A stretch of 64,000 bases of DNA from the IMG/VR virus record IMGVR_UViG_3300025313_000944, positions 1 through 64,000 of that record. One strand, written 5' to 3'. Below the pieces are notes generated by a model that saw only the letters and a program-made list of their open reading frames with translations, was not told where the DNA came from and did no database searches. Origin of the DNA: a virus. A program made the translations under genes and the position numbers. This document shows, piece by piece, positions 6,861 to 51,163 of this stretch (within the stretch, counting starts at the first letter, position 1; each line of letters opens with the position of its first letter).

Positions 6861-9476
6861 TTATAATAACCACCTACTGCGGAGCAATTTAGGTTTACTC
6901 GGTCTGAATTCCAATGAATCATATTTCTCAAATAACACCATGACGAAAGTTAAAAGTGCGGCAAAATTATGATCGTCACCGCGATCACTACCCAGTGGAG
7001 TAACTGCCTTATAAACAGGATTGCCGGTAGCAGTCCTGTAATAAGTTATCCTCTCTAATTCTGTGAGCAAATCTTGATCTCGCTTGGAGAAAGCTATGTC
7101 ATGGTTATTGGCCATCTGTTGCAACTTAGAGGCAGAGAATTGTTTGATGCGCTCTTTCATCTCGTTGCCACCTTCGTCGAAGCCAACCACGACCGTACCA
7201 CCGAACTCCACGGGCAACATACGTTTGACGAAATCTTTATCTCTGTATGTATCTGAATGTACGAAGTTGTGGTAAAGTGACTTACCCTGACCCCCTGAGC
7301 CAACGTCCATACCCAAGAAGCTTGGATTATATTTAGTATCCAACCGGTTGATTATCTTCTCTTGTTCATCATAGTTTATTTGGAAAAGTTCCAACCGGAA
7401 CAAGAAGTACCAAACGTGGCTATCTTGTAATCTATATAAAGCATTGATAGCCGTTGGCTGCGTGTTTCCTTGTATGGCTACTCTACCATTTCTCCTAGTT
7501 ATATAGAAGCCAGTTCTGGTTTTGAAGCAATAAATTTTTCCACTGTAGTGCACCAACTTTATATTTTTCTTTTTAGAAAGTTCATTCTCTTTTCTTTTCA
7601 TGACTGATGCACTATACATGCCACCACTAGACTTGTGAAATCCCACGGTGGATGAATACCCTAATATTAATGCTAATCTTTGAAATTGGTCAATTAAAGT
7701 TTTTGATTGGGTCCAATATTGAGGTGATCTTTCACAATTTATTCTTGAACCATCCCCCAACAATAATGTTCTCAGAAATAATTCTTGATCTTCAGTGGAG
7801 CAATTAAAAATAAATTCCGGTATTTTTTTGTTTTTAGAATGTATTCCACAATTATCTCTAAGCCACAAACAAAGTTCTTTGCAAGTTATTGTCCACTTAA
7901 CTTGCTCTTTACCCCATTGATTTATGTATTCTTGCCTGGTAACTGTATAGGGTAATTGTTTTAATACTTTATCAATTTCATCAGCATATCTATTCTTAGA
8001 TTGTGTTAGATTGACTTCCCATTGATGGTTTGCTGTTGCCGAGCCCTCAGAAACGAACCATGCTAGAAATTGTACCCAAACGGACATGGGTACATCTGTA
8101 GATTTTTGTACTCGGTCCTTTCTGTTGGAATAATAGTATGGAACAGTGAATGTGGATTTTCCTATTGTATTTCTTCGGTTTGGGGCAATTTTAACTCTGA
8201 ACCTATCATTTGCCAGTTTCAACAAATCCACCGCTTGCATTTCCTCATAATCTTGAGGAACATAACCTTTTGTCTTGCAAGCCCAAACAGAATGTTCTGG
8301 CGACACCATAAAATTTGTGCTTTTTCCAGAAACCTCAATCATCTTACCGTCATAGTCTAATTCTCGCAAGAATAGTGGTTTATCCCAAATTATTTCATTT
8401 GTATTAGTGTCGAAACAAGCTATGATATCATTCTCATTGGTTTCTTGGTGTTTCAACCAACCCCTAGAGGTTAGCACCTCAGTGTCCTCGGAATAACAAT
8501 AACCCAAGTCGATGCCAAGTATCAAGTCGCTGGTATATTTAGGAGCATTGGGTAAATTTAAAATCACACGATATGGTAATTGAGAATCTCTTTTAAGCTG
8601 TTCTCCATAGAGGCGGATAACTGGAACGTCGTAATCCTCCAACCGCAACATCTCTCTATCGAAAACAGCATAAGTCGGGGTCCCATGTTCCCCCAAAACC
8701 TGCCTAATAAAGTCTTGGCTATCCTTTCCTCCATATTGGTCAATCGCACGTTTCTCTGCATCTTCGGTGAACCTAGGATTACGATACGCAGAAATTCTAT
8801 GCTTACTGTAATCAGGGCTGTTGTCACAATGGTAGCACACACTCTTCTCGCGCCGACCATCGGGGACACCAGAGACCAATATTTGATAGCCAAGTTCCCA
8901 GTCGTTGATGACTGGTTGCATTTCCAACCAAACATTCCAAGGGAAGTATGCCGATTCGTCAAGGAATATGATTGGAACGTGTAAACCAACTACGTTAACA
9001 CCGGTACCGGTGGTACCAGCAATACGGCAGATGAGTGTAAACCCATTCACGAATTTAATAATAAATTGCTGGGCATTTACACTAAACCTATTTATCCACC
9101 AACGTAGAAGTGGATTTAGTCTAAATTGTCTTTGGAGCTGTAAAAATACTGGATCGAGATGTGAACGATTAGGTACCACGAATAAGGCTTCGTCGAAGAA
9201 TTTATTCATGGCGTGCCACATCAGTTTGGTGACGAGTACTTGGGTCTTTCCCACACCGCGGCCTGCTCTCAAAGATACTTGACTGGAATAATCCATCAAG
9301 AATTCATATTGATAATCGGTATGAACCCAAGCTTCTCCTTCGTCTTCATCCTTTTCGAGATTTCTAACGAATTCTCCACACCAAGCTGGATGTCTTAAAA
9401 GCTCGTAAACAGCCCATTCCTCTTCAGTTAATTTTTCGACCAGCGCCAATATACGGTACCGAACCTGTCCTTCCAA
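6861..9476 (-). CDS. terL: Terminase large subunit, interrupted by an intein
   Basis: 871-aa precursor; about 526 aa after splicing. The packaging ATPase has Walker A at 71-78 (AGRGVGKT) and Walker B at 169-174 (IIFLDE). The C-terminal RNase H-fold nuclease has Asp323 in GIDLGY, Asp723 in GMDVGSGGQG and Asp residues near RGDDHNFAA. Residues 327-671 are an intein inserted right after GIDLGY, within nuclease motif I, so the nuclease can only form after splicing. The start is the TTG at 9476, with no convincing Shine-Dalgarno and a terminator ending eight bases upstream; an in-frame TTG at codon 10 is an alternative. Confidence 0.9.
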   Translation of the reverse strand: MEGQVRYRILALVEKLTEEEWAVYELLRHPAWCGEFVRNLEKDEDEGEAWVHTDYQYEFLMDYSSQVSLRAGRGVGKTQVLVTKLMWHAMNKFFDEALFVVPNRSHLDPVFLQLQRQFRLNPLLRWWINRFSVNAQQFIIKFVNGFTLICRIAGTTGTGVNVVGLHVPIIFLDESAYFPWNVWLEMQPVINDWELGYQILVSGVPDGRREKSVCYHCDNSPDYSKHRISAYRNPRFTEDAEKRAIDQYGGKDSQDFIRQVLGEHGTPTYAVFDREMLRLEDYDVPVIRLYGEQLKRDSQLPYRVILNLPNAPKYTSDLILGIDLGYCYSEDTEVLTSRGWLKHQETNENDIIACFDTNTNEIIWDKPLFLRELDYDGKMIEVSGKSTNFMVSPEHSVWACKTKGYVPQDYEEMQAVDLLKLANDRFRVKIAPNRRNTIGKSTFTVPYYYSNRKDRVQKSTDVPMSVWVQFLAWFVSEGSATANHQWEVNLTQSKNRYADEIDKVLKQLPYTVTRQEYINQWGKEQVKWTITCKELCLWLRDNCGIHSKNKKIPEFIFNCSTEDQELFLRTLLLGDGSRINCERSPQYWTQSKTLIDQFQRLALILGYSSTVGFHKSSGGMYSASVMKRKENELSKKKNIKLVHYSGKIYCFKTRTGFYITRRNGRVAIQGNTQPTAINALYRLQDSHVWYFLFRLELFQINYDEQEKIINRLDTKYNPSFLGMDVGSGGQGKSLYHNFVHSDTYRDKDFVKRMLPVEFGGTVVVGFDEGGNEMKERIKQFSASKLQQMANNHDIAFSKRDQDLLTELERITYYRTATGNPVYKAVTPLGSDRGDDHNFAALLTFVMVLFEKYDSLEFRPSKPKLLRSRWLL
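7464..8498 (-). mobile_element. Intein with LAGLIDADG endonuclease in terminase
   Basis: 345 residues, Cys1 (CYSEDTEVLTSRGW, block A) to Asn345 (end AIQGN), followed by Thr+1. The block B-like phrase is FMVSPEHSVWAC. Two dodecapeptide-like motifs (LAWFVSEGSATA and LRTLLLGDGSRI) mark a LAGLIDADG homing endonuclease, so this is a full-size mobile intein. The insertion point GIDLGY/TQPTAIN is the conserved nuclease motif I of terminases, a typical target. It looks intact; splicing activity is inferred. Confidence 0.9.
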
Positions 9477-9952: not shown

Positions 9953-9954
9953 AG

Positions 9955-10027
9955 TAGGGATAGGAAGGTACGATCTTCCGCCATCTCACTCCCAAAGCGA
10001 GCGTGCTGCCAGTTACACCATATCCCT
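9955..10027 (-). tRNA. tRNA-Pro (anticodon TGG)
   Basis: Complete 73-base cloverleaf on the minus strand: acceptor AGGGATA/TATCCCT, D-stem GTGT/GCAC with loop AACTGGCA, anticodon stem CTCGC/GTGAG with loop TTTGGGA (TGG at 9994-9992, G37 as usual for Pro), variable loop ATGGC, T-arm GGAAG-ATCGTAC-CTTCC, discriminator A, no encoded CCA. The T-loop lacks the usual A58. Its 5' end overlaps the upstream stop codon by two bases. Confidence 0.85.
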
Positions 10028-15327: not shown

Positions 15328-15663
15328 CTAACTGGTTCTCACTCCTATATAATTTAATGCATCTGGAACTACTTCTACTAAATCCTTGCCGGGCACAACT
15401 ACCACATCACAATCCATAAATCTAATTATAGAGTGTGGCCTTTGGTAGACTTTTTGGGACATGTGCAACAGCAATTCTAGATAATTTTTATAACCCAAAA
15501 CGATATATTTAGGGGCTAAGTTGTGTTCATTCTGCAAGATACCCATCTGTTTAACGATACGATCTACAGTTCTCAAATAATTTAATTCTTGTTTCTCGCC
15601 GTTAACTTTTTTATTTAGTCGTTTCAATATGCTTATTGCCACTAACCACCAACCGTTTATCAT
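15328..15663 (-). CDS. Hypothetical protein downstream of sortase
   Basis: Up to 111 aa; the first ~20 residues overlap the sortase gene by 53 bases and may not be translated, so the true start could lie near 15600. The body is alpha/beta (KYIVLGYKNYLELLLHMSQ, DVVVVPGKDLVEVVP), resembling small phage proteins of unknown role. No Cys/His cluster and no signal peptide. Confidence 0.5.
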   Translation of the reverse strand: MINGWWLVAISILKRLNKKVNGEKQELNYLRTVDRIVKQMGILQNEHNLAPKYIVLGYKNYLELLLHMSQKVYQRPHSIIRFMDCDVVVVPGKDLVEVVPDALNYIGVRTS

Positions 15664-16003
15664 TCCCCAAGCAAGTAACTAACACCAAATCTGATCCCGA
15701 CAAAATTTTAGTAAACTTTGAATGTTCATGTTCCCCCAAGATATAGACTTCAGTCACCTCGTATTCTCTATTGGCAAACGTTATTATGTCACCAACCTCG
15801 ACTAAATGCAGATCGGAAAATATTCCAGGATTATGCCCGATGATATATTTCACCTGACCGTATTGGCACCAACAAGCTGACTTTTCCGGCACAACACAAA
15901 AGTTACCAGTTAAATAATCTATAGTCATAAATTCCCGTTGGCAGGGAGACACCGGTGTTATTATACTTCCGATGATCAACACCACTAAAATTATCATGTT
16001 CAT
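15611..16003 (-). CDS. Sortase-like transpeptidase
   Basis: 130 aa (128 if the ATG at 15997 is used). N-terminal hydrophobic stretch 1-19 is a signal peptide or anchor. The sortase core follows: His57 in IIGHNPGIFSDL, then VEVGDIITF, the strand EYEVTEVYIL, Cys111 in LVLVTCLG and Arg117 in NDKRLVV, the His-Cys-Arg triad in the right order and spacing. Sortases cut LPxTG-like signals and join proteins to the cell wall, acting outside the membrane. Length is near the minimal catalytic domain. It is the first gene behind a strong promoter (16006-16034). A candidate substrate is encoded at 59114-59974. Phage sortases are uncommon. Confidence 0.75.
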   Translation of the reverse strand: MNMIILVVLIIGSIITPVSPCQREFMTIDYLTGNFCVVPEKSACWCQYGQVKYIIGHNPGIFSDLHLVEVGDIITFANREYEVTEVYILGEHEHSKFTKILSGSDLVLVTCLGNDKRLVVSGNKHIETTK

Positions 16004-16005
16004 AT

Positions 16006-16034
16006 ATTATATCACATTCCAAGCTACTTGTCAA
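16006..16034 (-). promoter_or_regulatory. Sigma70-type promoter driving the leftward block
   Basis: Minus strand: TTGACA (16034-16029), 17-base spacer ending TGTGA, TATAAT (16011-16006). Upstream GAAATTGGGACTTGACA matches the promoter family at 55404, 56624, 60454 and 55107. The predicted start near 15999 lies inside or just after the first ATG of the sortase gene, so its mRNA would be leaderless or nearly so from the ATG at 15997. Confidence 0.8.
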
Positions 16035-16136
16035 GTCCCAATTTCGAGTTAACATAATGTCTTGGGATTTAGATATAGCTTGCCTTAAGTCCTACAGTTA
16101 TATTCTATTTTTATTATCGAGCTTTTTAATCTAGTC

Positions 16137-16374: not shown

Positions 16375-16411
16375 AGATGTGAAGAAAAATTCAAATCTCG
16401 GAGGTGTCGAG

Positions 16412-16891
16412 TTGATAATGCCAACGACTGTTCTTACAACTGTTGATTTTGCTGATACCCCGTTGGCAGAGTTTGGTGATTTGATAAATAGATATGCGGA
16501 AGAGAATTTGTTAGACCCATATATTGTTGCCGCAGTTATAATGGTTGAGAGCAGTGGTAAACCAGAAGCTTACAACTCAATGAGTAAAGCCACCGGCCTT
16601 GGTGGTATCATGCCGAGAGAAGCTGGTGCTGTGTTTGAGGATAGACCAACCATCGAAGAATTGAAAGACCCTGAAATTAACATAGCTTGGCTGTGTAAAA
16701 TCTTAGGGTATTACAGAAATAAATATCACGATATAGAAGCGGCTTTATACCAATATAGTGGTGGTTCAGTTTGGCCAGACAGAAAACAATTCAAGGAAAA
16801 ATATTTCAATCGAATAATGGGGTATTATGCTAAATATAGAACTGCACACGTCGATAGAGAGCCTGTTGCCGAAGTCTCCACAAATCCTTAG
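16412..16891 (+). CDS. Lytic transglycosylase (SLT-like)
   Basis: About 159 aa. Goose-lysozyme/SLT pattern: catalytic Glu in MVESSGKPEAYN, then SKATGLGGIMP (the usual S-xx-GLxQ-M region with GG replacing Q), EINIAWLCKILGYYRNKY and YQYSGGSVWP. Cleaves peptidoglycan glycan strands; as no signal peptide is present it may act as an endolysin released by a holin, or from the virion. GGAGGT at 16400 fits a TTG start at 16412 (spacing 6); ATG 16418 and GTG 16379 are alternatives. It overlaps polA by 65 bases. Confidence 0.75.
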   Translation: MIMPTTVLTTVDFADTPLAEFGDLINRYAEENLLDPYIVAAVIMVESSGKPEAYNSMSKATGLGGIMPREAGAVFEDRPTIEELKDPEINIAWLCKILGYYRNKYHDIEAALYQYSGGSVWPDRKQFKEKYFNRIMGYYAKYRTAHVDREPVAEVSTNP

Positions 16892-18569
16892 TTACCCGGC
16901 TTTGGCCATAGACGTTGAGACTAATGGGCTTGATCCTTATCTTAACAATTTGGTATCAGTACAGATTGCCAACTCAGAGAATAACGATGTGCATATTTTA
17001 GATGTGCGCAAAGATAACTTTCAACAATTCTTCAATTGGTTGGCAGTCTATAAAGGAAAAGTCTATTTTCAAAATGCCAAATTCGATCTCAAGTTTCTCA
17101 AGACTGTGTTTAATGTTTTATATTTTGATCTATATGATACCATGATTGCGGAACGGCTTCTAACTTGTGGCTTGCAAGAACATGGTTCAGGTTTGGATGT
17201 TCTGGCTAAGAAGTATCTTAATATAGATATGGATAAAGGCATTAGAAATGAATTCACGCTGCCACTATTTGCCAACTTGGACTTTAGTGATGCACAACAG
17301 CATTATGCTGCCTTGGATGCTTGGGTATTGCCACGCATTGCAGAAATACAACAAAAGCAGGCCAAGCAGGATGGGTTGGAAAGAATATTCGATTTGGAGT
17401 TTAAAGTAATTCCGGTTGTTACCAAAGCTGAATTGCGGGGATTTAAATTAGATACCAAATTATGGAATGAAATCTATCAGGATGAGGTTCAAAAAGCCAA
17501 TAACCTGAAAACTAAGATGTTCGCCGTAGCTGGCAAGATATTTAATCCCAACAGTCCTGATCAAATAAAAGATGTGATGCATTCGCTTGGTTTGACTGTG
17601 CCGGTAGTTGGAGGCAAAGAAACAACCAAAGAAGAATTTATCTACAAGATAGATCACGACTTCATAAGGTTGTTGATAGATTATAGATCGGCCTTTAGGC
17701 GAGCTTCAACTTATGGTGAAGAATTTCTGAATAATATACACCCACTAACTGGTGCCATTCATGCTGATTTTGACCAAACCGGCACGGATACAGGCCGTAT
17801 GAGTAGTAAAAATCCAAATGCCCAAAATATACCTAAGCGCGGTGAGGGAGACGAAAGATTTAGGCGAGCTTTTATAGCTAGAGATGGTTGGAAAATAATT
17901 AGTTGTGATTACAATCAACAGGAGGTGCGTGTCCAAGCTGAATTATCTCGTGACCCGTTATTGATAGATATTTACGAAAAAGATTTGGACAGACATACAG
18001 TTACGGCCTCAAACAAGCTAGGCATACCTTACGATCAGGTAACTCTTGATCAACGAAGATTCTACAAGAATATGACTTTTGCACTATCGTACGGTTCAGC
18101 AGCTTGGAATATTGCCAATAAATTCAATATGTCTATTGAAGAAGCTGAGGAACAAATCAAAGATTATTGGAGTCTTTATAAGGTTCTTCAACAATGGTCG
18201 CGCAGGGAAGGTTTATTAGCCTTCGCTAAGGGTTATTCGGAGACTATGTGGGGCAGACGGCGGTACTACGATACCAAAGCTATGCGTAAAGATGAGGTCA
18301 TGCGACAAGGTGCCAACCATGCTGTCCAAGGGACCTCCGCTGATATGTTGAAACTTGCTATTTACCAATGTGATAAGCAATTTGTAGATAGACATTATAA
18401 TTCTACTCTGATAAATTTCGTGCACGATGAATTGGAAGCAGAAACTTTGAGTAATGAGGCTGAAGAGATAGCTTGGGTTTGTAAAGAGGAAATGGAGAAA
18501 GCAGGCCAAGAATTTGTGAAAATTATTCCCATTCCGGCGGAGGTAAAGATAGGGGGTCATTGGTTATGA
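16827..18569 (+). CDS. polA: DNA polymerase I-type (family A) with 3'-5' exonuclease
   Basis: 580 aa, replicative polymerase. Exonuclease: motif I Asp29/Glu31 (AIDVETNGL), II Asn83-Asp87 (FQNAKFD), III Tyr160-Asp164 (YAALD), all intact, so proofreading is likely. Polymerase: TGRMSSKNPNAQNIP 322-336, motif A Asp361 (SCDYNQQEVR), motif B Arg411...Lys414...Tyr422-Gly423 (O-helix), motif C His533-Asp534 (VHDE). No 5' nuclease domain. Position 418 in the O-helix is Phe, so discrimination may be normal. The ATG at 16827 lies within the preceding gene with a weak GGGG signal. Ends overlapping recA (ATGA). Confidence 0.93.
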   Translation: MLNIELHTSIESLLPKSPQILSYPALAIDVETNGLDPYLNNLVSVQIANSENNDVHILDVRKDNFQQFFNWLAVYKGKVYFQNAKFDLKFLKTVFNVLYFDLYDTMIAERLLTCGLQEHGSGLDVLAKKYLNIDMDKGIRNEFTLPLFANLDFSDAQQHYAALDAWVLPRIAEIQQKQAKQDGLERIFDLEFKVIPVVTKAELRGFKLDTKLWNEIYQDEVQKANNLKTKMFAVAGKIFNPNSPDQIKDVMHSLGLTVPVVGGKETTKEEFIYKIDHDFIRLLIDYRSAFRRASTYGEEFLNNIHPLTGAIHADFDQTGTDTGRMSSKNPNAQNIPKRGEGDERFRRAFIARDGWKIISCDYNQQEVRVQAELSRDPLLIDIYEKDLDRHTVTASNKLGIPYDQVTLDQRRFYKNMTFALSYGSAAWNIANKFNMSIEEAEEQIKDYWSLYKVLQQWSRREGLLAFAKGYSETMWGRRRYYDTKAMRKDEVMRQGANHAVQGTSADMLKLAIYQCDKQFVDRHYNSTLINFVHDELEAETLSNEAEEIAWVCKEEMEKAGQEFVKIIPIPAEVKIGGHWL

Positions 18570-20401
18570 CACTATTAGATGAACTAAGGAAAGAATATAC
18601 CATTGCAACTCTCGAAGAGTTAGAACGAAAGTGGGCTGAAGAACCAACCAAGTCTTATTCGACTGGTGTTCCCAAGCTGGATAGAGATACCGGAGTTGGT
18701 GGCATTCCCGCAGGTAGGATAACTGAGATACATGGACCAGATCATTGTTTAGCTTGGGATTCATTTATTCTTTACAATATTATAGATAAGGGGGGACGCC
18801 GTCAAAATAAAAAAGGTGGAACTATACAGCACCTATATGAAAGATTCCATAAAATTTATGGCAACAAACGGAAAGAAACCAAAGATTCTGACTTTTATGT
18901 TGCTTCCATAAATGAAAAGGATTGTATAACGTTAAATAAAATAATGGATGTTGTTAAAACTGGAAACCAGAATTGTTATGAGGTGATAACAGAAAGAGGA
19001 CACAAATTAATCTGTACTAAGGAGCACCAATTTTATATTGGTAATGGTAAGTATGAAAAATTGGAAAAACTGGATGCTGGTAGCTGGGTTTTTATTCACG
19101 AAAATATACCCAATAGAAAGCATTATAAACAGATTAGATATTCAGAATTATTCGTAAAGTATCATCCATCTAATAGAATTAAGTCAATTACTGCAAATGA
19201 TAGGACTGGTTTTAAAAAATATAATTATATTAGATATAGGGTTAAAAATGCAAATATAATAGTAGAAGCAGACAGAAATGGATTAACATATAGAGAATAT
19301 ATTAACCTATTAAATAATGGTGTAAAAGAAGAAATAGATTCGCTATGGACAATTCCAACTGGGTTTGTGGTGCACCATAAAGATTTTAATTCAGGGAATG
19401 ATGATTTATCAAATCTTGAGCTAATGTTAGATGTGGAGCATCGCAGGTTGCACGCAATTCTCAGTCATAATAATTTAAGGTTTGTGGTAATACCAGACAA
19501 AATCAAGTCCATTAAATATGTTGGAGAAATGGAAACTTATGATATAAAATGTTTAGTTCCCTATAATAATTATGTTGCAAATAAATTCGTGGTACACAAC
19601 TCAGGTAAAACCAGTTTGGCTTTATCTACAGTGGCAGAATTGCATAAAGCAAATGCAGATGAACTAGCTTTATACATAGATGCAGAGAACGCTTTGGATT
19701 ATGAATATGCTTTAAAATTCAACGTGGACAGAAAAAGATTAATTGTCTTATATCCAGAGCAAGGTGAGGAAGTGTTTACTGTTGCGGAAAAGGCAGTTAG
19801 AAGTGGTGAATTTGCCATAGTGGTGGTTGATTCGGTGCCATCTGTTTCCCCAAGGAAGGAAATGGAGGGAGAAATAGGTGATGCCCACGTAGGATTAGTG
19901 CCTAGGTTGGTATCTCAGTTTTTGAGGAAGACTGCTTTTGCGGTGAGAGAATCAGGTGTGGCCGTTATATTTACCAATCAGATGAGAGACAGAATTGGTA
20001 GAGTACCATTGCCACCGGATTCACCTGGTGGTCGAGCTTTGAAGCACCATGCTTCTTTAAGAATATATCTATATAACGTAGAGCCGATTAAACAAGGTAA
20101 TGAAATTCTAGGCTCGAAGATTCAATACACTATAAAGAAGAACAAGGTTGGACCATCTTACGGCAATGGCGTGTTCGAGATTTGGAATGACAGAGGAATC
20201 TGCAAAGAGGCAGGATTGCTGGATATGGCGGTAGAATTAGGCATAATTCAGCAAAGGGGGGCTTGGTTTATTCACAACGAGAACACAATTGGTCAAGGCA
20301 GGTCTAGCACTATAAAAGCATTAAGTGAACCAGAATTATATAAAATTATATTACAGGAGTTAAAAGATGCAGAAAGGACCAACCACATGGAACACAATTG
20401 A
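18566..20401 (+). CDS. recA: RecA-like recombinase with an intein in the Walker A loop
   Basis: 611-aa precursor, about 326 aa after splicing. The P-loop GPDH-SGKTS is split by the intein at residues 61-345; ATP binding thus needs splicing. Downstream: YIDAENALDYEYA, VVVDSVPSVSPRKEMEGE, LVSQFLRKTAFAVRESGVAVIFTNQMRD (core and L1/L2 region), SPGGRALKHHASLRI. Shorter than bacterial RecA; the LexA/C-terminal region is reduced. Catalyses strand exchange in phage recombination and replication. The ATG at 18566 overlaps the polA stop, with AGGGGG 9 bases upstream. Confidence 0.93.
   Translation: MTLLDELRKEYTIATLEELERKWAEEPTKSYSTGVPKLDRDTGVGGIPAGRITEIHGPDHCLAWDSFILYNIIDKGGRRQNKKGGTIQHLYERFHKIYGNKRKETKDSDFYVASINEKDCITLNKIMDVVKTGNQNCYEVITERGHKLICTKEHQFYIGNGKYEKLEKLDAGSWVFIHENIPNRKHYKQIRYSELFVKYHPSNRIKSITANDRTGFKKYNYIRYRVKNANIIVEADRNGLTYREYINLLNNGVKEEIDSLWTIPTGFVVHHKDFNSGNDDLSNLELMLDVEHRRLHAILSHNNLRFVVIPDKIKSIKYVGEMETYDIKCLVPYNNYVANKFVVHNSGKTSLALSTVAELHKANADELALYIDAENALDYEYALKFNVDRKRLIVLYPEQGEEVFTVAEKAVRSGEFAIVVVDSVPSVSPRKEMEGEIGDAHVGLVPRLVSQFLRKTAFAVRESGVAVIFTNQMRDRIGRVPLPPDSPGGRALKHHASLRIYLYNVEPIKQGNEILGSKIQYTIKKNKVGPSYGNGVFEIWNDRGICKEAGLLDMAVELGIIQQRGAWFIHNENTIGQGRSSTIKALSEPELYKIILQELKDAERTNHMEHN
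18746..19600 (+). mobile_element. Intein with HNH endonuclease in RecA
   Basis: 285 residues, Cys1 (CLAWDSFILYN) to Asn285 (end KFVVHN), followed by Ser+1 of SGKT. Block B-like LICTKEHQFYIGNG. The endonuclease is of the HNH type, not LAGLIDADG: FVVHHKDFNSGNDDLSNLEL then EHRRLH. The AT-rich codons differ from the flanking extein, fitting separate descent. Block F/G end TYDIKCLVPYNNYVANKFVVHN-like. Inserted in the most conserved ATP-binding loop. Confidence 0.88.
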
Positions 20402-25284: not shown

Positions 25285-26793
25285 GTGGAACAAAAAGAAA
25301 TCATCGATTCAATAAAAGCCAAGGTAGGTACCAGTCTGACATTAGCCGAAATCCCCAAATTGAGGTGTATCCACCGGCATGTAATCGAAGAGCACCCCAT
25401 GTGTTTTTTAAACGGGGATATTAAATGGCCTACAGACAAAGCATTTGAAAAATATAATGATGTGCCTTGGTTTATGTGGCCTGGGCATAAAATCGGTTAC
25501 TTGGACATAGAAACCAGTGGACTAAACGTCAACTTTGGTACCATGCTATCTTGGGCAATAAAAGAAAAAGGCGGTGGTATTCATTATGATGTAATCACCA
25601 AGGATGATATTTTTGATAGAAACATTCGTGATTTAAAATTGGTAACCAGTTTGCTGGAAGAATTGAAAAAATATAGCATAGTGGTTACATATTATGGCTG
25701 TGTGACTCCTGGTCACAAGATTTTAACTAAAGACCTACGTTGGGTCAATGTTGAAACTCTTAAGCCAGGAGATGAGTTATTGTCTTTTGAGGACAACCCA
25801 TCAAAAAGATCAAGACAGTATACCGAAAGTGTTGTGATGAATAATGTTCCTATTGTAAAGGATGTTTTTGAAATCACGCTTTCTAATGGACAAAAGTTAG
25901 TAGCAACAGGAGACCACCCTTGGCTGGTTAAAAGACAACGTGTCTGGTGTTGGAGAAAAACAAGCGAATTACTGAATAAGGGTCAAGTAACTAAACTGGA
26001 CAAGATCATAGATGTGTGGGAAGAATCTAATTCTAGAGAATCTGGATACTTAGCTGGATTCTTTGACTCTGAGGGTGGAGTTTACCAAGTAAATAGAAAA
26101 GATAGAGACGGAGAGTATACATTTTCCGTGTGGGCATCTCAGAATGAAGAAAGTAATGGGAACATAATTGATGAAGTTGTTAGAGCAGCAAGATCAGAAG
26201 GTTTTGAATTATTAGTTCATAGTTATGATAAAGAACACCCAAGGCAGATGTCTATAGGTGTGGGTGGATCGAAGCAAGAAAAATTGAAGTTTCTTGGTAA
26301 AATTAGACCACAGAAGTTAAAGAAACTGGACGTGAATATACTAGGGGAGATTGGTAGAGAAGATTCTATAGAAATAGTATCAATTATCCCATTGGGAAAA
26401 CAGGTTGTTTGTGGTCTGGAAACGTCTAGTAAAACTTATATAGTGGATGGATTTGGTAGTCACAATACTAATTTCGACGTTCCCTTCATTCGCGCCAAAG
26501 CTTTGCATTATAACCTAGAGGGCTTAGAGTACGGTTCCGCTTTCCATCTCGATCTTTACTTCACCATAAAAAGCAAATTTGCACTGAGCAGAAAATCTCT
26601 GGCAGTAGCCACAGAATATTTTGGCATACCCGGAAAGACACCTATAGAATATTCTGTGTGGTATGATGCACAATTTGGAGAGCCAGAAGAATTGGCTATA
26701 GTTCTAGAACACAATATTGCAGATGTAGAGATAACTGAGAAACTTCACGACAAGATCACTCCCTATAGAAAGTGGCTACGTAAAAGTGTTTAA
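25285..26793 (+). CDS. YprB-like 3'-5' exonuclease inter-rupted by an intein
   Basis: 502-aa precursor, about 246 aa after splicing. DnaQ/RNase H-like: motif I Asp74/Glu76 (GYLDIETSGL), motif II split by the intein as VTYYG/TNFDVPFIRAKAL, and late Asp in HNIADVEIT. Fits predicted ribonuclease H-like exonucleases (YprB/RNase_H_2). The N-terminal ~60 residues have Cys/His (CIHRHVIEEHPMC). Probably DNA or RNA end trimming in replication. GTG start, GGGAG eight bases upstream. Confidence 0.8.
   Translation: MEQKEIIDSIKAKVGTSLTLAEIPKLRCIHRHVIEEHPMCFLNGDIKWPTDKAFEKYNDVPWFMWPGHKIGYLDIETSGLNVNFGTMLSWAIKEKGGGIHYDVITKDDIFDRNIRDLKLVTSLLEELKKYSIVVTYYGCVTPGHKILTKDLRWVNVETLKPGDELLSFEDNPSKRSRQYTESVVMNNVPIVKDVFEITLSNGQKLVATGDHPWLVKRQRVWCWRKTSELLNKGQVTKLDKIIDVWEESNSRESGYLAGFFDSEGGVYQVNRKDRDGEYTFSVWASQNEESNGNIIDEVVRAARSEGFELLVHSYDKEHPRQMSIGVGGSKQEKLKFLGKIRPQKLKKLDVNILGEIGREDSIEIVSIIPLGKQVVCGLETSSKTYIVDGFGSHNTNFDVPFIRAKALHYNLEGLEYGSAFHLDLYFTIKSKFALSRKSLAVATEYFGIPGKTPIEYSVWYDAQFGEPEELAIVLEHNIADVEITEKLHDKITPYRKWLRKSV
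25699..26466 (+). mobile_element. Intein with LAGLIDADG-type domain in the exonuclease
   Basis: 256 residues, Cys1 (CVTPGHKILTKDLRWV) to Asn256 (FGSHN), then Thr+1. Block A and B (KLVATGDHPWLV with the conserved THxH-like DHP) are clear. One dodecapeptide, LAGFFDSEGGVY, is seen; the second is not obvious, so the endonuclease may be small, single-motif or decaying. Inserted within exonuclease motif II. Confidence 0.88.
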
Positions 26794-33160: not shown

Positions 33161-35181
33161 TGGAGCATAAGCTTACGCCAATGGCAGAACAAATCCTACA
33201 GAAGAGATATGTTCATTCTGCTTTGGGAGAAAAGGATTGGAGTGACGTTGTCGAAAGAGTGTTGAATCATGTCATCCCACAAGAAAAAGATAAATACCGT
33301 GAGATTTTACTTGAACGCTATTTCGTACCCAATAGCCCTACTCTTGTTAATGCTGGCTCCTCTAATCTTAGCCTTTCTGCTTGCTATGTTGTACCTTTCG
33401 AGGATTCATTAGAAGACATTGCACATACTAAATATGCTTTTCTTAAAGTGTGCCAGAAAGGTGGTGGTTGTGGTACTACACTTTCTAATTTAAGACCTCA
33501 AGGAATGCCTGTTGCTGGTAGTGCTCACTCTATAGCAGCAGGGCCGATTGGATTTTTTAGTTCTATTTGTAGAGATATGGAAATTATGTCGGAGACTAGG
33601 TTCAGACATATGGCCATGATGGGTACGATGAGTTGTTCTCATCCTGACATAGAGAAATTCATTTTGGCTAAAACTGAAGAAGGTACATTACCAACCACTA
33701 ACATCTCAGTGATGGCTACAGATGAATTCATGCAAGCAGCCATTGATGGGGAAAATTGGTTAGCTGCGTTCTATGGCCCACACGATACGAGTATATCCAG
33801 AACCTTCAGTGCCAAGCGACTGTTAGATTTAATAGCCAAACAGGCTTGGCTTAATGGTGAACCTGGTTTGCTGTTTGAAACCAGAATAAATGAAGACACA
33901 CCATATAAATATTCTGGTCAATATATTTATGCAACCAATCCTTGCGGTGAACAACCGTTGCCACCATATGGTGTTTGCAATCTTGGCAGCATTGATCTCA
34001 GTAAATATTATAAATCATATATATCAGACTTGAGTAAAGTTATAGATTGGGAATTGTTGGGGCAGCACATAAGATTGGCTGTAGAATTTCTGGATAATAT
34101 AATTGATGTTTCGGTTTGGCCTTTGCCGGAAATAGAAGAGTGGGTTAAAGACAACCGCCCAATCGGTTTAGGTGTTATGGGTTTTGCCGATCTGTTACTA
34201 ATGATGGGTATAGAATATGGAAGTTTGGAATCAATCAATTTGGCCGAAGATTTGGGTGAATTTATTTATGAGGTTGCCCACAAAAGAAGTATCGAGCTTG
34301 GTCAAGAAAGAAATATACCACAAGCATGTAAAGTATTGCCTGAACCTAGACGTAATGTTACTATAATCTCTGTGGCCCCAACGGGCACTATCAGTCTATT
34401 AGCCGGGTGTAGTTCTGGCATAGAGCCAATTTATGCTCCTACAACAATTAGAACGGACAAGACAGGGACTTATACGCTAAGACATCCTTATGAGACAACA
34501 TCTTATTTCAAGTCAGCTATAAATGATGATCCCAACAAAGTCGTTACGTGGAAAGAACACATCGACATTCAAGCAGCTTGGCAAAAGCATTGTGACAGCG
34601 GAATCTCCAAGACAATTAATTTCCCCAACACAGCCACAGTGGATGATATTCGGGATGCTTTTGTATATGCTTGGCGCTCTGGCTGTAAAGGCGTTGCGGT
34701 CTATCGAGATGGTTCCAGACAGGAACAAGTTCTGAGTCAGAAAAAATTTTGGCCAAAGAATGAGCCGGTTACACAGGAAATTACACCCAAAGAGAGACCC
34801 TATACTTTAGATTCAAAGACTGTCAAGGTGACTAATGGTGGTGAGGGGAATGTTTACATCACGGTATCATACCAAGACGCTGCACCCAGAGAGGTTTTCG
34901 TCAATACTGCAAACCTACTTCTACATGAAGTTCAAGCCAGGGATGGCTTTGCTAGGTTATCTTCTTTGGCTTTGAAGTATGGTGTTCCAATCACAGAATT
35001 GATAAAAGAATTGAGACAAATTCCAGCCCAATCTTTGAAATCTGTACCTCTAATGATAGCTAAAGTATTAGAAGAATTAGAAATGCCGCAGGGTACCTGC
35101 CCCAGTTGTAAAGTTGGGGTATTAGAAATGGTTGAAGGTTGCAAAAAATGTTCAACTTGTGGCTTTAGTGAGTGTAATTAA
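33160..35181 (+). CDS. nrdJ: Class II (adenosylcobalamin-dependent) ribonucleotide reductase
   Basis: 673 aa. NPCGEQPLPPYGVCNLGSID and the N-terminal SPTLVNAGSSNLSLSACYVVP are characteristic of the B12-type/NrdJ family; GGGCGTTLSNLRPQG and VAPTGTISLLAGCSSGIEP also fit. The C-terminus has the zinc/redox cysteines CPSCKVGV...CKKCSTCGFSEC. It reduces ribonucleotides to dNTPs without oxygen or a second subunit, so works with host-supplied cobalamin. Starts overlapping the lipoprotein stop. No phage thioredoxin seen. Confidence 0.93.
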   Translation: MEHKLTPMAEQILQKRYVHSALGEKDWSDVVERVLNHVIPQEKDKYREILLERYFVPNSPTLVNAGSSNLSLSACYVVPFEDSLEDIAHTKYAFLKVCQKGGGCGTTLSNLRPQGMPVAGSAHSIAAGPIGFFSSICRDMEIMSETRFRHMAMMGTMSCSHPDIEKFILAKTEEGTLPTTNISVMATDEFMQAAIDGENWLAAFYGPHDTSISRTFSAKRLLDLIAKQAWLNGEPGLLFETRINEDTPYKYSGQYIYATNPCGEQPLPPYGVCNLGSIDLSKYYKSYISDLSKVIDWELLGQHIRLAVEFLDNIIDVSVWPLPEIEEWVKDNRPIGLGVMGFADLLLMMGIEYGSLESINLAEDLGEFIYEVAHKRSIELGQERNIPQACKVLPEPRRNVTIISVAPTGTISLLAGCSSGIEPIYAPTTIRTDKTGTYTLRHPYETTSYFKSAINDDPNKVVTWKEHIDIQAAWQKHCDSGISKTINFPNTATVDDIRDAFVYAWRSGCKGVAVYRDGSRQEQVLSQKKFWPKNEPVTQEITPKERPYTLDSKTVKVTNGGEGNVYITVSYQDAAPREVFVNTANLLLHEVQARDGFARLSSLALKYGVPITELIKELRQIPAQSLKSVPLMIAKVLEELEMPQGTCPSCKVGVLEMVEGCKKCSTCGFSECN

Positions 35182-40882: not shown

Positions 40883-41637
40883 GTTTTATTCACCGGAAAG
40901 TCAATCTTATCCAATTCAGATTTGGGCATGTACCACACCGCCGTGTGCTCCGGCCAAGTTCCGCTTGTTACGGACCATGGACCGCTATAAATATGTTTAT
41001 CTGTAAAGTAAAGTTTATCTGTAAAGTAAAATTTAAGATGCCTGTACCAATTGCTTAAACTTTGGTATTGAGTTCTTATTTTCAAACTGGATAAATCATA
41101 ACCAAAAATTGAGCCGTCCAAGTCCTTGTGGTAATTTTCCCAAATACTGAGCAGTTCAAGTGAACATTCAATGTCAGGTTTGTAAACCGGGCACCAAACG
41201 TCCGGTGACACCTCGTAAGCTACGAAGTTCTGCACACCCCTCTGTCTGCTGGCTACCTCGTTGGGAACTCTATAGTTCTTGAAGATGTATATTGCCAGCT
41301 TGAGCAGGTCGAAGTTGTAACCACGACCTTCTCTCAGGTAACGTAGAATTGCGTGCAGCACCGGCCTAGGTGTGGTTGGATCAACGTCGGCCATTTCCTC
41401 AGCCGACTGTAAAACTATAGGTTGGTAGACTCCGTCTAGTATAGTGTTTGCTTTACCCACCCACTTGGCGAATTCGATTAGCTTTGCTGAATCCGGTGCC
41501 AATTTCCAGTAGCTAGAGACGGTGTGTATCCTGATTGAGTCTATTACCGAAACATTCTTGTAGAAGCACGTTGCAGTTTCGGCACAATGCGAGCTTACGT
41601 CTTGGCCGTTTACATGTACATAGTTGTAGCCACTCAT
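40864..41637 (-). CDS. Hypothetical protein beside the ATP-grasp gene
   Basis: 257 aa, no recognised fold. N-terminus MSGYNYVHVNGQDVSSHCAE; central PRPVLHAILRYLREGRGYNFD; an internal duplication TDKLYFTDKH. It shares one base with the ATP-grasp stop, so it belongs to the amide-bond cluster. May be a substrate-handling or accessory protein. Confidence 0.55.
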   Translation of the reverse strand: MSGYNYVHVNGQDVSSHCAETATCFYKNVSVIDSIRIHTVSSYWKLAPDSAKLIEFAKWVGKANTILDGVYQPIVLQSAEEMADVDPTTPRPVLHAILRYLREGRGYNFDLLKLAIYIFKNYRVPNEVASRQRGVQNFVAYEVSPDVWCPVYKPDIECSLELLSIWENYHKDLDGSIFGYDLSSLKIRTQYQSLSNWYRHLKFYFTDKLYFTDKHIYSGPWSVTSGTWPEHTAVWYMPKSELDKIDFPVNKTCRLES

Positions 41638-42500
41638 TAACCCTCTCCTATGAATAGGTAATCAGTATAAGATCGTGAATCAAGTAGCGGGTAATGCTCT
41701 CTCTCCCCGCTAAGTAACCAATCGAAATATTTAGCGTATTTACCCTGAGCATAATCTTCTAAAGTAGGTGAGGTGTTTACCTCACACACTACACATTGTG
41801 GATGATCCGGGCCATCCTCGGTTCTTGTCGGGTTAGCCATGATGTCTACCGCACCGTAATCCAAGCCGAGAACTTCTACAGCCTGAATTGCCAGCCTAAT
41901 CTCGTCTATGGGCCAATTAGACCGCCTTAGCACAACAAATTCAAAGTCATTGGTGGCGTGATTCCACACCGGTAGATTTACCTTATCTTCTTCACCCTCT
42001 CTCGGTCTCTTTTCGTTGACCAATAGAACTTTGCCATGAGCCACATGAACCCTGTATTCGTTTTGTTTCGGGTAGAACTCTGAGAAATACGAACCCACAA
42101 ACGGTGGTGGCGTGTGGTGTAATTCGTCCTCATCCTCGATCAGCCAAAAATTCTGACCACCTTGGTGAAACTGCGGCCTAAGAACTACCGGAAAGTTTAA
42201 TGTCCAGTCTTGTATCGGCTTAGTCCAGACAATGGTTTTGGGAACAGACACGCCAGCTTCTTGCAGCACCAGCCTTGCCCGGCCTTTGTCGCTGGCTAAG
42301 CCTATTCCCGACGATTGGTTGATTGTCTTTTTGGCGGGAATGTTAACACGACTTGCCCACCTAATCAACAATTCTACATTCTCAGGTGGGGCATCCCCTC
42401 TCCGCAAGCGCAACAATTGAATTTGGTCTTTGGTCTGCATCTTGTCGTAGATGCCTTGGACCGTCCTATGCCCGTTAGAAGCGCAAGTTAACAGGTTCAT
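41637..42500 (-). CDS. ATP-grasp ligase (RimK-like)
   Basis: 287 aa. ATP-grasp features: NFPVVLRPQFHQGG (105-115, glycine-rich nucleotide loop), EFYPKQNEYRVHV (Glu148/Arg150), VNEKRP, Asp219 in YGAVDIM, and Glu240-Asn242 in CEVNTSPTLEDY (metal ligands). Forms amide bonds by acyl-phosphate activation of a carboxylate. The first 10 residues MNLLTCASNG resemble the next small protein (ILTCANNGH). Lies among amidoligases and glutaminases, so likely joins amino acids or peptides to a product or protein. Confidence 0.8.
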   Translation of the reverse strand: MNLLTCASNGHRTVQGIYDKMQTKDQIQLLRLRRGDAPPENVELLIRWASRVNIPAKKTINQSSGIGLASDKGRARLVLQEAGVSVPKTIVWTKPIQDWTLNFPVVLRPQFHQGGQNFWLIEDEDELHHTPPPFVGSYFSEFYPKQNEYRVHVAHGKVLLVNEKRPREGEEDKVNLPVWNHATNDFEFVVLRRSNWPIDEIRLAIQAVEVLGLDYGAVDIMANPTRTEDGPDHPQCVVCEVNTSPTLEDYAQGKYAKYFDWLLSGEREHYPLLDSRSYTDYLFIGEG

Positions 42501-42733
42501 TCTAATACCTCCTCTACCTCTATGCTTATAATCCTGTGGTTAGGTATCTCCAATAAGTTGGCAGCATGACCAGTCTCCAACAGAACATTTAGTTGGGTTC
42601 TCGTCAAATTACTATACGGCAGATTGGTTGTAAGTTCACCTATAGGCATTTTATAGGTGACCGTAACAATCCATTTACTTTTTTCCTCTCTGCCCGCGCT
42701 GTGACCATTATTAGCACAAGTTAGTATTTTCAC
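42497..42733 (-). CDS. Small protein sharing the LTCAxNGH start with the ATP-grasp
   Basis: 78 aa from GTG 42733 (GTGA overlap with the upstream stop, AGAGG eight bases away). KILTCANNGHSAG at the N-terminus mirrors the ATP-grasp protein's first residues, then a beta-rich region (KWIVTVTYKMPIGELTTNLP). May be a modified substrate, a carrier or a diverged duplicate of the ligase N-terminus. Unrecognised. Confidence 0.55.
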   Translation of the reverse strand: MKILTCANNGHSAGREEKSKWIVTVTYKMPIGELTTNLPYSNLTRTQLNVLLETGHAANLLEIPNHRIISIEVEEVLE

Positions 42734-43311
42734 TTCAAATACCTCTGTAGATAGGCTATGATTTGATGTAACTGACCCAGCACTTCTGGGTGCCATTGAA
42801 CTGACACCACCGGTTTGTCTGGGTGCCAGATAGCTTCTATGATGCCGTCTTCAGCCACCGCTGCTACTTCCCAACTTGGCGGCACATCTTTGACGGCCTG
42901 GTGGTGCATAGAGTTGGCGCGAATGATTCTGGTGCCAAAAATTTCTTGCAGAATATTAGGCCCGGTTACGTGAACTGGGCCATGATGATGCCACCCAATC
43001 ACCACACCATCAAGCTCTATATCTTGGTAGAGACTACCACCAGCAGCGGCGGCGATGATTTGGTGCCCCCTACAGATGCCTACCATGGGGTGGTTCAATT
43101 CCAACAACCTTTTAGCTAGGTCGAATTCTCGTTTGTCGATGGCTGGCATCCACGGCCTAGAATGTGTATTCTCTTCCCCATACAGGCTGGGGTCGATATC
43201 CATACCCCCAGGGAACACCCAAGGTAAGTCGAGCGGTGGATTTTCTAGAAATTCTTGGTATTCTGCCTGTGTATAGTTTCTAGCAGGCCAGTCTGAATAA
43301 TAAAAATTCAT
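42730..43311 (-). CDS. Class I glutamine amidotransferase-like (peptidase C26/PuuD-like)
   Basis: 193 aa. Nucleophile Cys80 in GICRGHQ, then MHHQAV and the His174/Glu176 dyad in VQWHPEV; PGGMDIDPSLYGEE matches gamma-glutamyl hydrolase relatives. Hydrolyses gamma-glutamyl amides or supplies ammonia. In the cluster, it may edit gamma-glutamyl products made by the ligases. A second copy lies at 49337. Confidence 0.85.
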   Translation of the reverse strand: MNFYYSDWPARNYTQAEYQEFLENPPLDLPWVFPGGMDIDPSLYGEENTHSRPWMPAIDKREFDLAKRLLELNHPMVGICRGHQIIAAAAGGSLYQDIELDGVVIGWHHHGPVHVTGPNILQEIFGTRIIRANSMHHQAVKDVPPSWEVAAVAEDGIIEAIWHPDKPVVSVQWHPEVLGQLHQIIAYLQRYLK

Positions 43312-44048
43312 TATAAGTCCCTAGCCAATTCCAGCACCGCAGGTGGTGCTACTTCTTGCTCGCCGAAGAGAGACCACGCACCATAAGGCTCGTACCAGCC
43401 TCCATAGCTACAGCAAGCCTTAATTCTTTTGGCAAAAACTTGGTAACTGTTATTGATATTGCCCTCCAACCTGAGTTCAAAGACACCAAACCTGTTGCAG
43501 CGGTTACACTTACCCACCTGTGGTAGTAAGCTGAGAATTTCTTCTTTGTCTAAGAACAAGGCTGCCATGTAACCATCAAGGCCATCGTGATCTTCCACCA
43601 TGGACCTGCGCCTGATGAAGAATGGGTGCAATTCTGCCAAGGTGAATTCACCCAACAAAAAGCTCATAGCCCCGTCCCAAGTATCTTCACACCAATCTTC
43701 CTCTTGCTGTAATAAGCCCATATCTGCCAGTACCTTGAGGAGCAGGTGGTCGAATTCCCACCACCCATCTTCGTAGCAGCCTCGGATGATACCAGCCGCA
43801 GCGTGTACCGCGGCCAGGTGGATGTCAGCAAGCTTGAGGGTTACTTTGTTTGACTCGAAAAAATCATCGAATTTTTTCTCGGCCTGCATGCCGAAGCTAT
43901 TAACCAATGCTATGCGGTCATCTATTCCACCCCAGTTGGGTGAGTAGATGGTTAACAGCGCAGGTGAGTGGCTTCTTATTTGCCGTAGCATAGTTTCGCG
44001 GCAGGAGGTCGAGGACACTGCCGTACTGATGTAAAATTTGGTCGTCAT
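43311..44048 (-). CDS. Hypothetical protein in the amide-bond cluster
   Basis: 245 aa from ATG 44048 (ATGA overlap with the amidoligase; GGAGG 7 bases upstream). Residues ~1-45 (KFYISTAVSSTSCRETML) and ~85-130 are helical; CNRCNRF (~186) and a later CC pair may bind zinc. No known family. Its tight coupling to the amidoligase suggests shared work. Confidence 0.55.
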   Translation of the reverse strand: MTTKFYISTAVSSTSCRETMLRQIRSHSPALLTIYSPNWGGIDDRIALVNSFGMQAEKKFDDFFESNKVTLKLADIHLAAVHAAAGIIRGCYEDGWWEFDHLLLKVLADMGLLQQEEDWCEDTWDGAMSFLLGEFTLAELHPFFIRRRSMVEDHDGLDGYMAALFLDKEEILSLLPQVGKCNRCNRFGVFELRLEGNINNSYQVFAKRIKACCSYGGWYEPYGAWSLFGEQEVAPPAVLELARDL

Positions 44049-44950
44049 TTCCAAGCCTCCATAATATAGTTTTTCGGTGGTGCGGGTGCTTGTACACCGA
44101 AAAATTCAGAAACATTAGAAAATAATTGCTTGGCCGCTTCTGGATCACAGTTGTTTATGGTGGGTACCACTCGCCCAAAGTCTAATTGATTGATAAATTC
44201 AAACGGGTTATAACCATCTTCGATTAAAACGTGCACCATTTTAGCCAGACCCAGTAGACCGGCAGTTAATTCAGGATTGGTACTGGCCACACTACTGGGG
44301 GTGCGGTATTCTACACCCCAAGGCTGGATACGGAACTTTCCAGCCCGACCATACATCTGCCTACGTTGGCGGCCTAGGTCGGTGCTCTCGATCAGTACAT
44401 CATATAACCCTAACGTACAGTCGAGTAGCATCACCAAGCCTTGGACCTTGTTCATGTCCTTGTGAATTTCACTGATAGAGAAGTGAATGTGAAATCCGCC
44501 TGTCCGCCAAGTTATCTTGCGTGGGTCTTGCCAGGGACAGGTGGACAGGTCATACAAGCACTTGTCCGGCGAGCAGCCCAGTACCCTAAGTTCGGGGTGG
44601 TCTACCAAGTCTCTTGGGTCTAAGTAAACCAGCGGTGCTGCTGATAAGATATAACCGTTGTCATCAGCTAGTTTCCAAGCCTCACGCAAACCTTCGTAGA
44701 GGTGTTGCATCAGGCTATCCACCTCTCGCTCCGGTGTAACTGGGACCTCCAAAGCCAACCCATCCTCAGTCAGCTTGGAGTTTGCCAGCGTCACCTCGGC
44801 TGTCCAGTAGCCACCGTCGGCGATGTCTGAACCTATTTCTTTGAAGATCGGCCTGTGTTGCTTGGAAGCAACTAGTACATCTTTAGCCGGCTTGGCCAAG
44901 CCTGATGGAGACTGGTAAAAATATTCACAATCTAAGCCTATCAAGTTCAT
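44045..44950 (-). CDS. Amidoligase (phage phiEco32-like COOH-NH2 ligase type)
   Basis: 301 aa. Glutamine-synthetase-fold ligase features: GLDCEYFY at the start, GYWTAEVTLANS (glutamate metal ligand), ITWRTGGFHIHFS (GxHxH) and VEYRTPSS with conserved Arg. Such ligases couple a carboxylate to an amine with ATP, and in phages are found with ATP-grasp and glutaminase genes. Target (peptidoglycan peptide, phage protein or small molecule) is unknown. GAGG five bases before ATG 44950. Confidence 0.8.
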   Translation of the reverse strand: MNLIGLDCEYFYQSPSGLAKPAKDVLVASKQHRPIFKEIGSDIADGGYWTAEVTLANSKLTEDGLALEVPVTPEREVDSLMQHLYEGLREAWKLADDNGYILSAAPLVYLDPRDLVDHPELRVLGCSPDKCLYDLSTCPWQDPRKITWRTGGFHIHFSISEIHKDMNKVQGLVMLLDCTLGLYDVLIESTDLGRQRRQMYGRAGKFRIQPWGVEYRTPSSVASTNPELTAGLLGLAKMVHVLIEDGYNPFEFINQLDFGRVVPTINNCDPEAAKQLFSNVSEFFGVQAPAPPKNYIMEAWK

Positions 44951-44951
44951 T

Positions 44952-45587
44952 TTATCCTCTACCCGTATTGTATGTAGTTGTTGTGGGACCTGCCCACCTA
45001 ATATATTGTCGGACACTCTCTCTTGCTTGCGCCATACCTTCTAAATTTTCTGAACTTGGTTGTTCTAGTTCATCGTCTGGTTCATCATCCTCTTCTAAAT
45101 CTAGTGACGCTGGTTCTGGCTCCGTGACAGAGTGCCTCGGCTTGATAATAGTGATGACGGGGTTGTATTTCTCCTCTATTTTGCGCAAGTTCGTGGCTTG
45201 ACATTCTCTGACCAAGGCGCACGTTTTGCAAGCAACTTTATGTACACAGTTGGGGCAAACTATAGCCGCGTATCTGGCACACCAACCCAGCTTGTCGGTG
45301 ATGTTGCCACACCGGCAGACATCTATTAGATCGAAATCCACAAGTTGCCCGCCGGTGCCACAGCTTGTGCACGTTATAAATTCTATGTCGTGCACGGTTA
45401 CGTTGTGCAATTTCTTCTTGGAAGAAAGGTTGAAGTTGGTAATCCTGTCCTCCGCCGACAAGCCTTGGGTTTCTAACAGAGCTTTGGTGGCTTGTCCCAT
45501 CAGTTGTAGGCTGAGGCATTCCAGTAACAAGTCAGCCTTAACCGCACCTTTGATGTCAGTGCCACCACACGTTTTACACCTAAGCAT
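44952..45587 (-). CDS. Multi-zinc-ribbon protein
   Basis: 211 aa. Zinc-binding pairs: CKTC (4-7), CTSC (~75), CRCG (~91), CPNC/CKTC/C (~112-125). C-terminal ~60 residues are acidic and disordered (LEEDDEPDDELEQ). Likely nucleic-acid or protein binding adaptor. Not recognised as a family. Ends overlapping neighbours closely. Confidence 0.6.
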   Translation of the reverse strand: MLRCKTCGGTDIKGAVKADLLLECLSLQLMGQATKALLETQGLSAEDRITNFNLSSKKKLHNVTVHDIEFITCTSCGTGGQLVDFDLIDVCRCGNITDKLGWCARYAAIVCPNCVHKVACKTCALVRECQATNLRKIEEKYNPVITIIKPRHSVTEPEPASLDLEEDDEPDDELEQPSSENLEGMAQARESVRQYIRWAGPTTTTYNTGRG

Positions 45588-45933
45588 TTAAATACCTCCT
45601 GACCGATGTATCGTTTATATATCTAACCTCTTTGGGGTCGAGCCTTAGTATCGGAGCCACCATATATTTGTCGATAAATAAATCACTCCTGATTAATACA
45701 TTATTATCCTTGTCCAGCTCCATGACCACGAACCTGCCCGCCCACACGTTTCTGGCGGTGGGCCACATGTAATTGGTAAAGATGATGGTTTCGACCTCGC
45801 CATCTTCAATCAGGCTTATATAATAGCCTAGTAGATTGCGGTTGACCTGCATACCACCTGCCCCACCTGTAACTACCATGGGTGACAGCTTGGTGCTTTG
45901 CCGAAACTCACTTAGCAATTGCTTTATATTCAT
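45580..45933 (-). CDS. Hypothetical protein
   Basis: 117 aa. Alternating strands (YYISLIEDGEVETIIFTNYM, GRFVVMELDKDNNVLI) suggest a small beta domain; ends TSVRRYLNA. Overlaps both neighbours by 4-8 bases in the cluster. Confidence 0.55.
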   Translation of the reverse strand: MNIKQLLSEFRQSTKLSPMVVTGGAGGMQVNRNLLGYYISLIEDGEVETIIFTNYMWPTARNVWAGRFVVMELDKDNNVLIRSDLFIDKYMVAPILRLDPKEVRYINDTSVRRYLNA

Positions 45934-49325: not shown

Positions 49326-49336
49326 TTTTATTTTCC

Positions 49337-49960: not shown

Positions 49961-49961
49961 T

Positions 49962-50048
49962 TTAGCACCCCCTCAGAACCAAGAGTATTATTACAAGTAC
50001 CACCAAATATAGAAACCATAGGTAGAGTTGTCCTTCGTTTAATCTCAT
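49962..50048 (-). CDS. Tiny membrane protein
   Basis: 28 aa: MRLNEGQLYLWFLYLVVLVI then ILLVLRGC. AAAGGAG about 8 bases before ATG supports translation. One hydrophobic span; possibly modulates envelope enzymes. Seen by reading the intergenic space. Confidence 0.6.
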   Translation of the reverse strand: MRLNEGQLYLWFLYLVVLVIILLVLRGC

Positions 50049-50070
50049 TTTATTTTCTCCTTTTATTCTT

Positions 50071-51153: not shown

Positions 51154-51163
51154 GTTTTGCTCC

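Follow-up and report, generated by a model that had tools for sequence, protein, structure and literature searches.

A minimal sortase-family protein encoded behind a consensus promoter in a phage genome

Introduction

Sortases are bacterial enzymes that fasten proteins to the cell wall, and they are regarded as cellular housekeeping or adhesion enzymes. To our knowledge, phages rarely have a sortase and nobody has shown its use to them. No paper on a phage-encoded sortase was found in the literature searched, and the word sortase is absent from a survey of 224 jumbo phages (PMC7824862). A short gene in the IMG/VR record IMGVR_UViG_3300025313_000944 (87,332 bp) raises the question of whether a phage may encode such an enzyme and what it would do with it. 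The window analyzed here is the whole stretch formed by bases 1-64000 of this record. Within it, the 130-aa ORF that the original prediction had placed at 15611-16003 was recovered at exactly this position, on the minus strand. The reading preferred here, with chances that we put at about even, is that its product is a minimal sortase-family cysteine transpeptidase, accessory to the phage and driven by its own host-type promoter, that alters the surface of the infected cell. Computational tools show the family, the fold, the catalytic residues, the promoter, the rarity and the accessory position; export, activity, substrate and benefit are what we infer.

Genomic context

The record is that of a phage and includes genes for terminase, portal, capsid and tape measure. 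Its structural genes point leftward, and from 16.4 kb onward the replication genes point rightward. The portal protein falls in PHROG 2739 (E 1.5e-20), one of the leftward structural genes probably encodes the major capsid protein, and the tape measure (1334 aa) is encoded past the end of the window. The leftward genes begin, at the point where the two operons diverge, with the sortase-like gene (Table 1). The rightward replication operon opens with the gene of an SLT lytic transglycosylase, which, as judged from its sequence, probably starts at TTG 16412 or ATG 16418, behind GGAGGTG. On the other side, the next gene downstream has, in its annotated form, an overlap of 53 bp with the sortase-like gene, unless it starts later. 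Its 111-aa product matches no Pfam family above the cut-off, and both genes are probably carried on one transcript. The only tRNA of the window, a tRNA-Pro (tgg) at 9954-10027 on the minus strand, has the terminase gene on one side and a zinc-ribbon gene on the other.

Table 1. Features of the sortase-like locus and of the candidate substrate gene (positions in the window)
Feature	Position	Strand	Evidence
Sortase-like gene, 130 aa	15611..16003	-	Pfam PF04203; AlphaFold2/PDB fold matches; codon score
Next gene downstream, 111-aa ORF	15328..15663	-	ORF list; codon score 0.24
Sigma-70-type promoter, TTGACA-17-TATAAT, extended -10 (TG)	16006..16034	-	12/12 consensus matches
SLT lytic transglycosylase, divergent neighbour	16379..16891	+	Pfam SLT, 50.9 bits (cut-off 21.3)
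Candidate sortase substrate, 286 aa	59114..59974	+	Signal peptide, LPxxG, membrane segment, basic residues; Shine-Dalgarno AAGGAGGT
LPMAG-VTE-LPTLG codons, possible sorting motifs immediately external to the membrane segment	59759..59797	+	Sequence

Family membership and fold

The annotated frame is favoured by codon use, with a score of +0.12; the five other frames score -0.64, -0.46 and -0.08 to -0.38. Residues 47-122 of the protein match PF04203 (sortase family, MEROPS C60) with 32.9 bits (E 5.9e-8; curated cut-off 26.6), or with 32.7 bits in a search of the whole record. The layout announced for the catalytic residues, namely His57 in GHNPGIF, Cys111 in LVTCLG and Arg117 in DKRLVV, is present, and these three residues align with the catalytic ones of sortases from Thermomicrobium, Herpetosiphon, Planococcus and a second phage described below. 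Indeed, His, Cys and Arg are all required in sortase A (PMC5148588). An AlphaFold2 model built on a 15-row alignment (pLDDT 73, pTM 0.71) places strands and helices from residue 43 onward; it is weak at residues 20-34 and the first strands are poorly modelled. In a Foldseek search of the PDB with this model, all matches at E <= 0.001 (38/38) are sortases, with TM values of 0.5-0.65 on the query, the best being 4d70, the SrtD of Clostridium perfringens (E 2.2e-5, probability 1.0). As modelled, the protein thus agrees with the eight-stranded sortase beta-barrel, and a non-sortase fold, which the original prediction had named as one refutation, was not seen.

The possibility that this is no sortase, the resemblance being due to chance or to an unrelated beta protein, is extremely improbable. 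It could draw on a Pfam score only moderately above the cut-off, on a plain sequence search of the PDB that returned no match, and on NCBIfam matches, all of them to sortase models, that stay below every class-specific cut-off. Nevertheless, the Pfam cut-off is passed, the three motifs stand in the right order and spacing, the fold search leads to sortases, and identity to the sortase of an independent phage reaches 33% (E 1e-10). The Pfam, fold and phage-sortase matches together largely refute it. Since Pfam match, fold search and catalytic-residue alignment concur, the assignment to the sortase family, as originally predicted, is well supported by sequence and model. It does not extend to a class (A-F), as the best class models reach 14.7-18.4 bits for cut-offs of 158-165.

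A second phage sortase and cellular counterparts

Searches of viral and genome collections with single-sequence patterns revealed no close relative of the protein. A pattern written for GHNPGIF at the DNA level, which detects GHNPGIF-type sortases only, matched eight contigs, seven of which were not sortases. The remaining one answers the call of the original prediction for phage relatives: it is a 49.7 kb phage (IMGVR_UViG_3300037286_000037, hereafter G001) that encodes a terminase, a major head protein and a DNA polymerase and is possibly a phage-plasmid. Its 175-aa sortase (PF04203, 63.6 bits) is 33% identical to the present one over 105 aa. Both are phage-borne, and the G001 protein has GHNPGIF, TLITC and KRLII; it differs by a full N-terminal part, with about 40 residues before strand beta-1, and by its location among probable tail genes of an otherwise different phage. 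Only four protein matches at E <= 1e-3 link the two phages, the sortase among them, so that a GHNPGIF-type sortase may move between phages, unless both phages drew on similar hosts. G001 also encodes an FtsK/SpoIIIE-like ATPase (43972-45375).

The nearest NCBIfam model to the G001 sortase is class F (40.6 bits, cut-off 166), and the nearest cellular sortases found with it as query are those of Thermomicrobium roseum and a class F enzyme of Planococcus. Cellular sortases of class D/E/F type share fold and catalytic triad with the present protein but measure 230-280 aa instead of 130 aa, whereas the latter is phage-borne and below every class cut-off. The cellular GHNPGIF sortases found come from Enterococcus and Vagococcus only (19 loci), a set biased by the pattern used. 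They have the identical GHNPGIF, the T-C motif and a conserved Trp before it, but in these class F-like proteins Asn replaces the catalytic Arg, which the phage protein keeps; they also carry a long Ser/Pro-rich N-terminal part and are chromosomal or located on megaplasmids. From their sequences, they are possibly inactive or altered.

Promoter and N-terminus

The promoter had been described as near-consensus. Its existence is upheld, but it is in fact a perfect site with an extended -10, and the only 12/12 site with such spacing in the 64-kb window. Sites with at most one mismatch number four, where 0.59 would be expected, and shuffled sequences never yielded as many. Between the -10 box and the annotated ATG of the sortase-like ORF lie 2 nt. 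The box itself contains an in-frame stop, which limits the length of the ORF and rules out an upstream in-frame extension. A frameshifted anchor was also considered and rejected, the upstream overlapping ORF in another frame (15903..16055) having no hydrophobic stretch. As read from the sequence, the transcript should begin at about 16000-15998, with the annotated ATG upstream of it. Because the -10 box abuts the ORF, a leaderless mRNA is expected, with translation probably starting at Met3 (15997). No Shine-Dalgarno is present.

The predicted signal segment is less certain. Residues 3-21 are strongly hydrophobic (Kyte-Doolittle 2.41) and score as a membrane segment, but the stretch has no basic n-region and partly overlaps strand beta-1, the first of the barrel. 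The sequence GSIITP aligns with this strand (TIEIPS in G001), and with residues 12-18 alignable to it, about 11 residues are left for an anchor. The N-terminus may therefore be a short anchor with an altered beta-1, or an intact beta-1 with an anchor stub. Export and efficient translation are uncertain because neither a basic n-region nor a Shine-Dalgarno is found.

This ambiguity is the chief doubt about function, and on it rests the alternative of a shortened, decaying or non-exported sortase, in which recombination would have joined the promoter to an anchor-less gene whose product is cytoplasmic or inactive. The position of the -10 box with its stop, the few residues available for an anchor when compared with G001, and the low model confidence at 20-34 all agree with such decay. 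Yet the protein has lost none of its catalytic residues (His, Cys and Arg) or flanking motifs, the ORF is free of internal stops and matches the phage's genes in codon use, and the hydrophobic stretch is still recognized as a membrane segment; decay is thus judged unlikely.

Rarity and accessory position

That a sortase is unusual in a phage, as had been asserted, agrees with the absence of PF04203 from all 100 other viral records tested, many of which are fragments. INPHARED matches to ordinary sortases, on short unverified fecal or Listeria scaffolds, were not counted as phage sortases; the one inspected has bacterial genes. Relatives of the phage were located through its ribonucleotide reductase (RNR) and polymerase, and three of them, G038, G039 and G003, have the structural module in common with it. 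Identities are 39-40% for the portal and 49-53% for the capsid with G039 and G038, and 31% and 57%, respectively, with G003. G038 and G039 keep the zinc-ribbon gene, the polymerase and the RecA-like gene in similar order, and G039 also the RNase H-like gene, but neither a sortase nor an SLT gene is located between the flanking genes kept, which is the pattern of cargo. A sortase-profile search likewise found nothing in the collinear relatives, for E 7.6e-42 in the present phage, whose protein is itself a member of the profile. Given these empty equivalent positions and the 100 records lacking PF04203, the sequence comparison indicates that the sortase-like gene is accessory cargo.

The comparison with the same relatives also brings out large insertions with intein-like borders (start C..., end HN or GNT) in the terminase gene (6861-9476, minus strand), the RecA-like gene (18560-20401, plus strand) and the gene of a DnaQ-like exonuclease (25285-26793, plus strand), of which G038 and G039 match the outer parts only.

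Gene position could suggest a virion-assembly enzyme making isopeptide links in tail or head. Indeed, in G001 a probable tail/virion gene runs with its 3' end into the sortase gene, which lies one gene before a tail-fibre-like protein, and the present gene heads the operon leading to the structural genes. However, no LPxTG-like C-terminal sorting signal occurs in the structural proteins of either phage, the collinear relatives assemble without a sortase, and a membrane-directed N-terminus does not fit, which makes such a role very unlikely.

Sortase-like proteins of Streptomyces phages

A fold search of viral models retrieved a protein of Streptomyces phage TP1604 (probability 0.99). It is taken to be gp43 (34395-34991, minus strand of that genome) because the length agrees (198 aa) and because gp43 contains AHN ... 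GADLVLQSC ... LLRR. This protein belongs to PHROG 17228, labelled 'peptidase', and occurs in 20 records of Streptomyces phages, where it is called 'cysteine protease', 'peptidase', exported peptidase or hypothetical protein. Like the present protein, gp43 has its AHN, SC and R motifs in sortase order, with GADLVLQSC resembling GSDLVLVTC, and it is secreted. In contrast, it has a cleavable signal and a linker, and the sequence match between both proteins spans at most 14 residues. With no Pfam sortase match for gp43, it is from motifs and model that the PHROG 17228 protein looks like a divergent sortase-like protein. PHROGs 22228 and 23668, which have no assigned function, match ordinary bacterial sortases. 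Phage sortase-like proteins thus exist but are scarcely recognised.

These annotations lend themselves to another reading, in which the present protein would be a sortase-fold peptidase rather than a transpeptidase, cutting host receptors, S-layer or pilus proteins and so preventing reinfection or aiding release. When an amine acceptor is lacking, sortases act as hydrolases, and the divergent neighbour encodes a peptidoglycan-cutting SLT enzyme. Nothing specific to the present protein points this way, sequence cannot separate hydrolysis from transpeptidation, and this reading is considered distinctly unlikely.

A candidate substrate

A transpeptidase would need a substrate, and one protein of the phage stands out. 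It is the only one among all its proteins that combines a signal peptide (aa 1-27, cleavage site AYA), an LPxxG motif next to the membrane, a C-terminal membrane segment (238-263) and basic residues. Between signal peptide and motifs, LPMAG at 216 and LPTLG at 224, lie an acidic and then a Pro/Thr-rich stretch. The canonical sorting signal consists of LPXTG followed by a hydrophobic stretch and basic residues (PMC5148588). Here, the motif is LPMAG/LPTLG instead, and the cytoplasmic tail, of about 23 residues, is longer than usual and has an acidic end. When the outer part of the protein is shuffled, 0.7% of the shuffles place LP.[TASG]G no more than 35 residues from the membrane segment, a figure to be read with the motif having been chosen after looking. 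The Shine-Dalgarno of this gene is good, unlike at the sortase-like gene, which lies 43 kb away in another operon. Directly upstream, a DUF1360 membrane protein is encoded at 58727-59086 on the plus strand (26.0 bits, cut-off 21).

No homologue of the candidate substrate was found in the related phages, so no conserved sortase-substrate pairing can be demonstrated, and none of the G001 proteins has the same combination of sorting features. A similar design is found in the sortase operon of a Herpetosiphon plasmid, which includes a Pro/Thr-rich protein with an FPVTA...TM...RR end. This Pro/Thr-rich design and the Thermomicrobium and Herpetosiphon sortase matches lead us to suspect a Chloroflexota-type host; RNR matches in the host search are distant. 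That the sortase-like protein and the candidate substrate form an enzyme-substrate pair is a hypothesis drawn from sequence. Its fullest version, a complete two-part surface-display system in which the sortase and the secreted LPxxG Pro/Thr-rich protein coat the infected host, for instance excluding competing phages, is rather doubtful.

Elsewhere in the window, a cassette at 41637-51195 on the minus strand encodes a RimK-like ATP-grasp protein, two class-I glutamine amidotransferase/C26 peptidases, a COOH-NH2 ligase, an Amidoligase_2 and an unclassified 424-aa protein starting with MCRL, and is largely kept in G039. Peptide modifications are the predicted products of amidoligase systems. It is possible that this cassette is connected with the cell wall and the sortase.

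Proposed role and significance

For the preferred reading, that of an accessory transpeptidase acting on the cell surface, the following course can be proposed. Starting at the perfect promoter, host RNA polymerase would transcribe the gene shortly after entry or while the phage persists as a lysogen or in a carrier state. Through its hydrophobic N-terminus the enzyme would sit on the outer face of the host membrane, where Cys111, with His57 and Arg117, would cleave a secreted protein at an LPxxG-type motif close to its membrane end. The most likely substrate would be the phage's own LPMAG/LPTLG protein, and the cleaved protein would then be joined to a cell-wall or surface amine. The surface of the infected cell would be changed, for example such that adsorption of competing phages is blocked.

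The finding points to relatives that had gone unrecognised, in G001 and among the Streptomyces-phage proteins filed as cysteine protease. If a phage does use a sortase in this way, it would have a covalent means to rebuild the surface of its host.
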